Source of the DNA: Candidatus Levybacteria bacterium RIFCSPLOWO2_02_FULL_37_18
Lineage (GTDB): Bacteria > Patescibacteriota > Microgenomatia > Levybacterales > UBA12049
DNA: 57,917 nucleotides
Assembly (NCBI GenBank): GCA_001784115.1
Contig: MFPD01000013.1
Location: forward strand, 1 to 57,917
Direction of reading: 5' to 3'
Position numbers and translations under genes: made by a program. Shown piece after piece: positions 40,825 to 45,202 of this stretch (the stretch's first letter is position 1; the number at the start of each line of letters is the position of its first letter). A model generated the notes under the pieces. The model had not been told where the DNA came from. It ran no database searches and saw nothing but the letters and a program-made list of their open reading frames with translations.

Positions 40825-42552
40825 ATGAAGAAATGGGAGATTCAAAATAAAGTCAAAAGTCAAAAGTCAAAAGTCAAAATTGACGAACTAACTAAAGTTC
40901 TTTTTGAAAATAGGGGAATTAAGACAAATAAAGAAAGAGAAGAATTTTTACACCCGGATATTAGTTTGGTAACGACAGAAAACGTAGGGGCAGATAGAAT
41001 GCAATTGCAAAAAGCTGTTGATCGAATTGCAAAAGCTGTAGAAAATAAGGAGCAGATTATTGTATACGGTGATTATGATGTTGATGGTATAAGCGGCACT
41101 GCGATTTTGTGGGAAACATTACATCAACTAGGCGCAAAAGTTCTTCCATACATTCCTTACAGAATGGACGAGGGTTATGGCTTGTCGATTCGTGGAATCG
41201 ACAAACTCAAAACTCAAAACTCAAAACTCAAAACGGATGAAGCAAAACTCATTATAACTGTTGATAACGGAATAGTTGCTCACGATGCAGTTGAGTATGC
41301 AAATGATCAAGGTATGGATGTGATAATTACAGATCATCATGTCCGCGCCAAAACAGATCCAAAAGCATATGCTATTGTTCATACGACAAAACTATGTGGA
41401 ACCGGAGTAGCATATCTGCTATCGCAGGAAATTCAAAATTCAAAATTCGAAATTCGAAACAAATCAAAAATCAAAAATACAAATGTTCAAAAAATGAAAA
41501 ATGACCACTTGGGTCTTGTGGCTTTGGCGACTATTGCAGATTTGGTTCCCTTAACTGGCGCAAATAGAACAGTTGCTAAATTTGGTACAGAAGTTCTTCA
41601 AAAGACAAACAGAATTGGCCTTTTGGAGCTGTTTGAGGAATCTGGGATTATTCAGAAGAACATCGGAGTGTATGAAATTGGCCATATTATAGCACCGCGT
41701 TTAAACGCGATGGGACGGCTTGAGTTTGCCATGGATTCTCTTCGGCTTTTATGTACTGGAAATAAAGATCGCGCAAAACTTCTGGCAGAAAAATTAGGGA
41801 CAACAAATAGAGAAAGGCAATCGTTAACAGCCCAAAGCGCAGAACACGCATTATCGGAAGTCAGAACTCAATCAGAACTCGGCAAATTAATTTTTATTTC
41901 GCATGAGTCGTATCAACAGGGCGTAATTGGACTTGTGGCAGGAAAATTGGTGGAAGAATTCTACCGGCCGTCAATTGTTGTTTCCATTGGGCAAACACAT
42001 AGCAAAGCGTCAGCACGGTCAATTCATGGATTTAATATTATTGAGTTCATCCGAGGCGCTTCTGAATTTCTGGTCGATGCCGGCGGGCATCCTATGGCTG
42101 CTGGATTTACGGTTGAAACAGCAAAACTTGCTTTGCTTCAAAAAGCTTTGGAAGAAAGAGTTACATTATTACTTTCTGATGAGCTTTTAATGCGATCTCT
42201 TCGTATTGATTGTGAGTTGGAGTTAGAACATGTCTCAAAAGAATTGTATTCTGCTCTGCAAGAACTTTCGCCATTTGGTATGGGAAATCCGGAGCCAACA
42301 TTTGTAAGTAAAAATGTTGGCATTAGCGATATGCGGGTGATTGGAAGGGATGGAAAGCACCTTAAACTAAAGTTCAAAGTTCAAAGTTCAAAGTTCAAAG
42401 TTGAATTTGATGCGATTGGGTTTGGAATGGGAAATTTGTCAAAAGAATTTAAAATTGGGGACATGGTTGATATTGCGTATGTTATTGGTGAAAATACCTG
42501 GAATGGTAGTACTAAGCTGCAGTTAAAAATTAAGGATATTAAGAAGGTATAA
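40825..42552 (+). CDS. recJ: RecJ single-strand-specific exonuclease with four repeat-encoded insertions
   Basis: 575 aa. DHH domain motifs: VYGDYDVDGISGTAI, TVDNGIVAHD, ITDHHVR, LVALATIADLVPL; then APRLNAMGRL and the DHHA1 motif DAGGHPMAAGFTV, and a C-terminal OB domain. 5'-3' exonuclease on single-stranded DNA in recombination and mismatch repair. Four heptanucleotide blocks are translated: about residues 9-19 (KSQKSKVKI), 127-137 (LKTQNSKLKT), 202-226 (NSKFEIRNKSKIKN) and 516-527 (FKVQSSKFKV). All lie between conserved motifs, so the enzyme should remain active. Confidence 0.95.
   Translation: MKKWEIQNKVKSQKSKVKIDELTKVLFENRGIKTNKEREEFLHPDISLVTTENVGADRMQLQKAVDRIAKAVENKEQIIVYGDYDVDGISGTAILWETLHQLGAKVLPYIPYRMDEGYGLSIRGIDKLKTQNSKLKTDEAKLIITVDNGIVAHDAVEYANDQGMDVIITDHHVRAKTDPKAYAIVHTTKLCGTGVAYLLSQEIQNSKFEIRNKSKIKNTNVQKMKNDHLGLVALATIADLVPLTGANRTVAKFGTEVLQKTNRIGLLELFEESGIIQKNIGVYEIGHIIAPRLNAMGRLEFAMDSLRLLCTGNKDRAKLLAEKLGTTNRERQSLTAQSAEHALSEVRTQSELGKLIFISHESYQQGVIGLVAGKLVEEFYRPSIVVSIGQTHSKASARSIHGFNIIEFIRGASEFLVDAGGHPMAAGFTVETAKLALLQKALEERVTLLLSDELLMRSLRIDCELELEHVSKELYSALQELSPFGMGNPEPTFVSKNVGISDMRVIGRDGKHLKLKFKVQSSKFKVEFDAIGFGMGNLSKEFKIGDMVDIAYVIGENTWNGSTKLQLKIKDIKKV
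40851..40881. repeat. heptanucleotide repeat 1 inside recJ
   Basis: Four copies of AGTCAAA plus ATT near the 5' end of the gene, read as VKSQKSKVKI. Confidence 0.92.
41204..41234. repeat. heptanucleotide repeat 2 inside recJ
   Basis: Four copies of AACTCAA plus AAC, read as KLKTQNSKLKT. Confidence 0.92.
41430..41500. repeat. heptanucleotide repeat 3 inside recJ (half of the long palindrome)
   Basis: AATTCAA twice, AATTCGA twice, then CGAAACAAATCAAAAATC ... AATGTTCAAAAAATG in parts. Its order matches the left half of the secD-secF palindrome. Confidence 0.85.
42371..42405. repeat. heptanucleotide repeat 4 inside recJ
   Basis: Four copies of AGTTCAA plus AGTTGAA, read as FKVQSSKFKVEF. Confidence 0.92.
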
Positions 42553-43281: not shown

Positions 43282-43539
43282 TTATATCCTTTTTTCTCTT
43301 CTAATAAATGTCATTTGTCCATTTGAGGTATGGATTCTGCCATGAGCGATTCCTGCGTTACTTATTCTACTTGCTCTTTTTCTAGTTTCCCATGCTGCTT
43401 CTGATAAGAATCTTCCTTGAGAAGAAGTTCTTTGATTGGAAGGAGTGTAAGCTGCTGAAACAACATTTACAGCTCGTCTTGTTTCAAGAGCCTAAACCCT
43501 CCAACTTACTCCAGCTCGTTTTAATATTTCTCGTTTCAT
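43282..43539 (-). pseudogene. small basic protein gene with an in-frame TAG
   Basis: Frame from ATG 43539 to TAA 43282-43284 would encode 85 residues but codon 16 is TAG (43492-43494). Before it: MKREILKRAGVSWRV; after it: ALETRRAVNVVSAAYT ... RFLSEAAWETRKRASRI ... HTSNGQMTFIRREKRI, rich in Arg and Ser. A single CAG-to-TAG change would explain it. It lies 4 nt before the 235-aa gene and 22 nt after the leader terminator. Not recognised. Readthrough, true pseudogene or sequence error are all possible. Confidence 0.55.
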
Positions 43540-43682
43540 ATATTTTCCATTAAAATAAAAAACTCCCGGTTACTAAATGCTTAGTAAGGGAGTTCTGAGC
43601 TTCGTTGCACAAAACATTCCCTCTATGTAAAGAGGAGAATGTATGCAAAAATAGCTTGATTCGCCAAGGCGTTCATAACTAT
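43540..43682 (-). promoter_or_regulatory. structured 5' leader, possible riboswitch or attenuator
   Basis: About 140 nt from the predicted start to the ATG at 43539. It contains a CGCC-TT-GGCG hairpin (around 43663-43672), a CATTC-CCTCT hairpin (43615-43641) and the strong terminator (43561-43594). I do not recognise the sequence as a known riboswitch class. Confidence 0.5.
43561..43594 (-). terminator. attenuator-like terminator in the leader of the minus-strand unit
   Basis: Outer arms AACTCCC/GGGAGTT (43561-43567, 43588-43594), inner arms TTACTAA/TTAGTAA (43570-43576, 43581-43587), loop ATGC, followed on the minus strand by TTTTTTATTTT. It stands between the promoter and the first ORF, so it can stop transcription before the genes. 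Confidence 0.85.
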
Positions 43683-43688
43683 AGGCCA

Positions 43689-43717
43689 ATTCTACTATAG
43701 AAAAACCTGCTTGTCAA
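43689..43717 (-). promoter_or_regulatory. consensus promoter of the minus-strand unit
   Basis: On the minus strand TTGACA (43712-43717), 17 nt, TAGAAT (43689-43694); start expected near 43682. Confidence 0.75.
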
Positions 43718-43753
43718 GAGGGAAAAATTACATTACAATGAGTTCAAGATTAA

Positions 43754-43852
43754 TTGTCATTGCGAGCACGTTCGACAAGCTCAGTGTAAACTCCGCGAAG
43801 CAATCCAAAAAGAGACTGCTTCGGTCGCCTCAGGCGACCTCGCAGTGACAAT
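43754..43852. repeat. complete CATTGCGAG-family palindromic element upstream of aspS
   Basis: TTGTCATTGCGAGCACG ... GCGAAGCAATCC, short centre, AGACTGCTTCGGTCGCC ... GACCTCGCAGTGACAAT. Same architecture as 5218-5299 with a different inner filler. Ends 16 nt before the aspS ATG. Confidence 0.9.
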
Positions 43853-43867
43853 AAAGAGAGGTCACAT

Positions 43868-45202
43868 ATGAAAAGGACACTTAATATAGACACCGTTGAG
43901 CATGCAGGCGAAGAGGTTTTAATAAAAGGCTGGGTGCGGCTTAGGCGGGATCATGGAAAATTAATCTTTCTTGATATCAGAGACCGCAGCGGAATACTGC
44001 AAGTTGTGGTAAACCCGCAAGTGTCTGAGAATGCTTATAAACTAGCTTCGGAACTTAAGCCAGAATACGTTGTAAAAATTAAAGGACTGGTTAAAAAAAG
44101 ACCTGAGAGTGCTGTTAATAAAGACTTAGAAACAGGCATAGTAGAATTGGAAGCGCAAGAAGTGTCAATTGTATCAAAAGCAAAAACTCTTCCTTTTGAC
44201 ATGGGAGCCCAAGATCTTAACCTCGAACTTCCCACCCTGCTTGATCATCGCAGTCTTTCGCTTCGCCACCCGAAACAACAGGCGATTTTTGAAGTTCAGG
44301 CAGCGCTTTTGGAAGGATTTCGAAAAGCAGCCACAGAAATTGATTGCAGAGAAATTGTTGTACCAACTATAGTTAGAGGTTCAACAGAAGGCGGAGCAGA
44401 GCTTTTGGAAGTTGGTTATTATACCCACAAAGCATTTCTTTCCCAAAGCCCGCAACTGTATAAACAAATGATGGTTGGTGTGTTTGAGAGAGTATGGACG
44501 ATTGCAAAAGCCTACCGGGCAGAGCCATCTGTTACCACCCGTCACCTGTCAGAGACAACCCAGCTTGACTGTGAAATCGGATTTATTGAATTTGAAGAAC
44601 TTTTGGATATGCTGGAGTACGTTGCGTTTGCAATGATTGGACATGCAGAAAAAAAATGCTCTCATATTATTTCTCAGTTCACGAAGGAAAAAGTGTTGTA
44701 TGGAAAAGTTCCGCGGATAACGCTTCAACAAGCTCAGGAAATAATTAAAAAAGAATTTGGCAGAGACCAAACTCGTGAAAAAGATTTATCTCCGCAAGAT
44801 GAAGTTGATGTATGCCAGTGGGCAAAAAAACAACACAAAAGCGATTTTGTCACAGTCACACATTTTCCTGCCATTGCAAAACCGTTTTATACCATGCCGG
44901 ATCCCAAGAATCCGACATTGAGCTTAAGCTATGACTTATTATTTCGCGGAGTTGAGGTATTAAGCGGAAGCCAACGAGTTCATGATTATGAAATGCTTTT
45001 GGAAAGTATTAAAAACCGGGAATTAAATCCTGATGATTTTAGAATGTATCTTATGGCGTTTGAATACGGTATGCCGCCTGAAGGTGGATTTTCGTTTGGT
45101 CTCGAACGGGTGACAATGAAGCTTTTGAAATTGGCAAATATTAGACAGGCGAGTTTGTTTCCCCGGGACATGGAACGCATAGATGAAAGACTTTCTCTCT
45201 AA
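43868..45202 (+). CDS. aspS: aspartyl-tRNA synthetase, compact archaeal-type
   Basis: 444 aa class II synthetase. N-terminal OB anticodon-binding domain (VLIKGWVRLRRDHGKLIFLD), motif 2 region AKAYRAEPSVTTRHLSE, motif 3 FSFGLERVTMKLL, and GSTEGGAELLEVGYY plus FLSQSPQLYKQMMV typical of archaeal/eukaryal AspRS. The large GAD insertion of bacterial AspRS (about 590 aa) is absent. Such enzymes are often non-discriminating and then need GatCAB amidotransferase for Asn-tRNA. GAGAGG precedes ATG 43868 (a Shine-Dalgarno site). Overlaps the next gene by 20 nt. Confidence 0.93.
   Translation: MKRTLNIDTVEHAGEEVLIKGWVRLRRDHGKLIFLDIRDRSGILQVVVNPQVSENAYKLASELKPEYVVKIKGLVKKRPESAVNKDLETGIVELEAQEVSIVSKAKTLPFDMGAQDLNLELPTLLDHRSLSLRHPKQQAIFEVQAALLEGFRKAATEIDCREIVVPTIVRGSTEGGAELLEVGYYTHKAFLSQSPQLYKQMMVGVFERVWTIAKAYRAEPSVTTRHLSETTQLDCEIGFIEFEELLDMLEYVAFAMIGHAEKKCSHIISQFTKEKVLYGKVPRITLQQAQEIIKKEFGRDQTREKDLSPQDEVDVCQWAKKQHKSDFVTVTHFPAIAKPFYTMPDPKNPTLSLSYDLLFRGVEVLSGSQRVHDYEMLLESIKNRELNPDDFRMYLMAFEYGMPPEGGFSFGLERVTMKLLKLANIRQASLFPRDMERIDERLSL

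Follow-up and report, generated by a model that had tools for sequence, protein, structure and literature searches.

The interval between recJ and aspS in a 57,917-nucleotide contig of Candidatus Levybacteria bacterium RIFCSPLOWO2_02_FULL_37_18 (the window, by which we mean the whole stretch of DNA that was analyzed) raises the question of what controls a short transcription unit coding for an unrecognized 235-aa protein, and to which signal this control might respond. An initial annotation described a strong promoter followed by a structured leader with an intrinsic terminator just before the first open reading frame (ORF), took the unit to contain two genes and suggested that the leader was a riboswitch or an attenuator. 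Our analysis indicates, with a probability of roughly 0.8, that the leader is a ribosome-mediated transcription attenuator, with general stalling of translation as its likely signal and a changing, probably stress-related module as its output. The promoter, leader, terminator and ORFs all lie on the minus strand, in the following setting:

40825..42552, plus strand: recJ, the conserved left neighbor (name checked).
43277-42570, minus strand: intact ORF of 235 aa.
43539-43282, minus strand: first downstream frame, cut short after codon 15 by a TAG stop (43494-43492).
43717-43689, minus strand: promoter TTGACA-17-TAGAAT, matching 11 of 12 consensus positions.
43868..45202, plus strand: aspS, the conserved right neighbor, divergent from the unit (name checked).

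The layout and coordinates first proposed for the promoter, leader and terminator proved correct. The promoter, as strong as had been claimed, is the best of its kind across 3 kb, where 11 promoter-like sites stand against 6.3 expected, and its context, TTGACAAG, is found again in the recJ-aspS gaps of relatives. The aspS product is of the non-discriminating type, an aspartate--tRNA(Asn) ligase. Between promoter and aspS (43740-43855) lies an inverted-repeat-like stretch, GTCATTGCGAGC ... CTCGCAGTGACAAT, which looks like a dispersed genomic repeat.

From a predicted transcription start near 43682 the leader extends to 43550 (about 130 nt), and its fold (-43.4 kcal/mol) is far more stable than that of shuffled sequences (-23.5 +/- 3.4; z = -5.9), with none of 200 shuffles as stable. 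Both the fold and a T-run, GTTTTTTATTTT at 43562-43551, bear out the intrinsic terminator, which stands on the same strand as the first gene and leaves 12 nt to its ATG (43539); the position previously predicted for termination, about 43561, agrees with this structure, and we place the predicted transcript end at about 43555-43561. Read on the plus strand, the hairpin precedes CTGAGCTTCG and is followed by no T-run, so the terminator serves the minus strand only and does not belong to the plus-strand context, a possibility that the initial annotation had raised. Within the leader, the following elements can be delimited:

43676-43623, minus strand: leader ORF of 17 codons, MNALANQAIFAYILLFT, with a TAG stop (predicted translation).
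43648-43605, minus strand: hairpin 1 (1:2 pairing), outer stem included, carrying the stop codon of the leader ORF in its loop.
43631..43640, minus strand: segment 1, ATTCTCCTCT, into which the final leader-ORF codons extend.
43609..43624, minus strand: segment 2, AGAGGGAATGTTTTGT, the 3′ arm of hairpin 1 or, with segment 3, the antiterminator.
43585..43597, minus strand: segment 3, CAGAACTCCCTTA, the 5′ arm of the terminator or the partner of segment 2.
43596-43559, minus strand: intrinsic terminator (3:4 pairing), identified by fold and T-run; 43596-43551 with the T-run.

These elements form the four-segment 1-2-3-4 layout of a ribosome-mediated attenuator of the trp/leu/phe type. The 2:3 antiterminator, whose formation excludes the terminator, has a dG of -13.2 in the window leader (p = 0.004 against shuffles), and in 15 of the 26 leaders compared its pairing exceeds that of dinucleotide shuffles (p < 0.05; combined p = 2e-18). 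Since it is slightly weaker than the window's terminator (dG34 = -15.3), the ON state would need a stalled ribosome or kinetic trapping.

The 17-codon leader ORF, which was absent from the initial annotation, starts at 43676, about 6 nt past the predicted transcription start, and is therefore nearly leaderless; its stop codon (43625-43623) falls in the loop of hairpin 1, at segment 2. Across 26 leaders, located mostly by synteny, we took the first ATG or GTG past the -10 box and found an in-frame stop between -8 and +12 nt from segment 2 in 20 of 26, against 2/26 and 4/26 in the two other frames (6/52; Fisher 1.4e-8), the window leader having its stop at -2 nt. The predicted ORFs, which thus appear to end at the switch segments, comprise 15-20 codons in the 22 clear recJ-aspS cases.

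The conservation of this arrangement was assessed with aspS as an anchor on the upstream stretches of 40 genomes, of which 32 gave both recJ and aspS. The named relatives are mostly Candidatus Levybacteria/Levyibacteriota. In all 32 the two genes lie on one strand, separated by 39-1887 nt, and the gap usually holds one or two ORFs, oriented opposite to recJ and aspS and mostly unrelated to one another, behind similar leaders. The common layout consists of a promoter, a leader ORF of 15-20 codons, a hairpin topped by the stop codon, a terminator and an ATG; it is present in full in about 20-22 gaps, later additions included, and in a compact variant, read by eye, in four more (L064-L067), while about one third of the gaps examined have another leader or no attenuator. 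The leader is accordingly kept at syntenic genes of relatives, contrary to the lack of conservation upstream of homologues that would have spoken against a regulatory role. When 20 leaders were placed on a covariance model (R1), which was seeded on nine leaders with loop bases trimmed or padded by hand and towards whose structure the covariation counts consequently lean, 95.4% of cells were paired and two-sided changes occurred at 6 of 12 pairs; the covariation score was matched by none of 500 shuffles, and slid structures were at most 75% paired. Searches for leader paralogues by DNA similarity returned chance-level matches only, so that the covariance model was required, and the regions upstream of aspS in other groups of the candidate phyla radiation (CPR; Woesebacteria, Kaiserbacteria, Vogelbacteria and others) showed no leader of this type.

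Several gaps (L032, L033, L040, L060, L062, L068 and L078) contain, by eye, TGTCA direct repeats about 11 bp apart, often with a palindrome, that resemble the Pho box of a PhoB/OmpR-type regulator. These gaps have no attenuator, except L078, which combines both.

The same covariance model also finds leaders in related genomes ahead of ilvE, ilvA, leuA, pheS and gatC, with codons that match the gene behind them. Gene identities were established with NCBIfam, apart from a short piece without a match that we take to be pheS on our own reading of the sequence. The window's own genome has such a leader at ilvE (L180, G000:C7:3699-3785), with the peptide MSLIQELVALQVALLIVVEK (Ile/Leu/Val at 11 of 19 residues). 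The ilvA leaders (L190, L191, L195) include MKKFSSIQIISIISIMES, with 4-6 Ile; those of leuA (L081, L083) MNKRILLLNLVLLLKE, with 5-7 Leu; those of pheS (L186, L088, L216, L223) MSNKFFFFTFTS, with 5 Phe; and those of gatC (L184, L198) MSANTQNQTS and MRSIKTQDQQNNSL, with 4-5 Asn/Gln, which count as matching because GatCAB produces precisely Asn and Gln. Outside the Levybacteria family the model recovers more pheS leaders, in other families of the class, one leader with four Thr codons ahead of an epimerase-family protein, and some chance matches. As judged from their predicted peptides, these sister leaders appear to serve as positive controls in which an amino-acid gene goes with matching codons, and they render a ribosome-mediated type of mechanism well supported in this lineage. 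One chance match to the model (L091) adjoins an apparent cobalamin riboswitch before a 403-aa protein.

These data bear directly on the first part of the initial proposal. A metabolite riboswitch or protein-binding leader, sensing its ligand directly and without translation, would likewise present a stable, conserved leader with a terminator ahead of a gene. We consider it very unlikely, since the leader-ORF stop keeps its place at segment 2 in a single frame, leaders of the same class carry matching codons ahead of amino-acid genes, conserved unpaired sequence is absent (the only invariant columns being the CTCCC/GGGAG arms) and an Rfam search of the leader returned no matching family. Of the two original suggestions, the attenuator is retained and the riboswitch abandoned.

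The codon content of the leader peptides provides the main indication of what a ribosome-mediated attenuator at this locus might sense. The largest share of any single residue averages 0.20 in recJ-aspS peptides, against 0.32 in the leuA, ilvA, ilvE, pheS and gatC leaders (p = 6e-5). No residue is shared among the recJ-aspS peptides beyond the level of the other frames, and a codon run for the amino acid of a downstream gene was not found there. Asp sensing, suggested by the adjacent aspS, was rejected upon finding Asp nearly absent from the leader peptides, as was a Phe-specific signal: Phe occurs in every peptide, but the other frames give 19/22 and 20/22. An attenuator specific for one amino acid in the manner of leuA or ilvA, sensing for instance Ala or Leu, would share the architecture observed here, and the window peptide does contain Ala at 4 of 16 residues and 3 Leu; yet the syntenic leaders conserve no residue, and the abundance of Leu/Phe close to the stop reflects the need of the pyrimidine-rich arm to pair, other frames counting alike, which leaves such specificity unlikely. 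Because the recJ-aspS peptides have no run of one codon, we regard a general stall as the most likely signal, in the sense that slow or stalled translation at large, whether from a broad shortage of amino acids or charged tRNA or from ribosome inhibition, is probably what is sensed, though deducing generality from mixed codons means arguing from absence.

General stalling also invites comparison with antibiotic-inducible attenuators of the erm/ABC-F type, which have leader peptides of about 15-20 residues and in which ribosome stalling is presumed to decide expression. A drug- or arrest-peptide-sensing attenuator of this kind, whose leader peptide would be stalled by a ribosome inhibitor, would suit both the 15-20 residues and the mixed codons of the predicted recJ-aspS leader peptides; no resistance-type gene was found among the downstream proteins searched, however, and no conserved arrest motif was seen, so that we hold this reading, too, to be improbable.

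The gene content behind the leader only partly agrees with the two-gene unit first described. The 235-aa ORF is intact, but the first downstream frame is broken by its in-frame TAG, past which there is no usable start codon, and is probably a decayed gene. By eye, the first ORF is also interrupted early in some relatives (by a TAA in L054, and in L064 by what looks like a frameshift at an A-run). The 235-aa protein is as unrecognized as initially claimed: it has no Pfam or NCBIfam match and no relative in genome or viral contig collections, and its AlphaFold model, weak (pLDDT 54) and all-helical in the C-terminal half, has no PDB fold match. It is poorly conserved, 100 related genomes yielding a single clear relative, encoded at the same locus (G017, 109 aa, E = 6e-7). 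Its C-terminal half consists of two copies of a repeat of about 55 aa that is common to the gap orphans of G017, G043 and G047 and, weakly, G011, and a second small protein family links other gaps (L045, L062, L068, L111). The promoters of large genes (440-580 aa; L047, L206, L208, L210) have a motif in common, ACTACTATAAGATATG, which lies in the spacer from -35 to -10 and may be an operator.

Such interrupted frames and poorly conserved proteins are what would be expected if the locus were an unregulated, decaying leftover, in which a constitutive terminator insulates aspS while the genes behind it are being lost. Nonetheless, the leader ORF frame, the stop position, the antiterminator and the covarying stems are kept in divergent genomes as the genes change, and decay would lose them; this explanation is hence highly improbable.

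In some relatives the same genomic position is occupied by a family of proteins of about 440 aa, found in the gaps of G006, G007, G015, G029, G040 and G052, with further members elsewhere. The attenuator precedes three of them, in G007, in G015 and, at another locus, in G021. By fold these proteins resemble RelA/SpoT alarmone synthetases (PF04607), their best PDB matches in Foldseek being SpoT, RelSeq, RelA and small alarmone synthetases (probability 0.97-0.99), but the E-values are only 0.004-0.04, on a model with pLDDT 71, and most members have no Pfam match; one lies around the PF04607 cut-off of 27, with 29.4 bits in one search and 26.6 in another. The modeled structure is thus suggestive of divergent RelA/SpoT-like proteins. 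PF04607 matches occur in only 2 of 73 genomes of the family and not in the window's genome, which also has no relative of the 440-aa proteins. For the 235-aa protein, a connection between this locus and starvation signaling is therefore at most suggestive.

Under the preferred ribosome-mediated attenuator, transcription would start at about 43682 and a ribosome would load on the 17-codon leader ORF very close to the 5′ end. A ribosome that reached the leader-ORF stop within the loop of hairpin 1 unhindered would cover the start of segment 2, allowing the 3:4 terminator to form and ending the transcript at about 43555 (OFF). If the leader were left untranslated, segments 1:2 and 3:4 would pair, with the same outcome. 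A ribosome stalled a few codons before the stop would instead block segment 1, so that 2:3 would pair, the terminator would be prevented and the downstream gene or genes would be expressed (ON). The output would be an accessory, probably stress-related module that varies by genome, here the 235-aa protein and in some relatives a RelA/SpoT-like one. It is conceivable, if rather doubtful, that a general stall attenuator at a fixed spot, driving interchangeable stress modules in a lineage mostly devoid of canonical RelA/SpoT, constitutes an attenuation form of a stringent-like response.

Ribosome-mediated attenuation of amino-acid operons (trp, leu, his, phe, ilv) is a known kind of regulation (PMC1183508, PMC1262725). 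The recJ-aspS leader resembles those systems in that a short leader ORF ends between segments 1 and 2, the 1:2/3:4 and 2:3 pairings exclude each other, and a terminator stands ahead of the first gene. Unlike those systems, it has a nearly leaderless ORF without a single-amino-acid codon run, precedes orphan or RelA/SpoT-like rather than biosynthetic genes, and stays at one genomic spot while these genes change. The literature searched, mostly outside subscription journals, contained no paper joining transcription attenuation with the candidate phyla radiation. What is new is a leader ORF that is nearly leaderless, a mixed codon content, a locus that stays in place while its genes change, and the occurrence in CPR bacteria.

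Taken with the leaders at ilvE, ilvA, leuA, pheS and gatC, the mixed-codon form, which precedes orphan and RelA/SpoT-like genes, suggests that ribosome-mediated attenuation is widespread in these reduced and mostly uncultured bacteria. Attenuator leaders open a route, from sequence, to what orphan genes do in bacteria that are very hard to grow, and the starvation response of a lineage with almost no canonical RelA/SpoT becomes testable.
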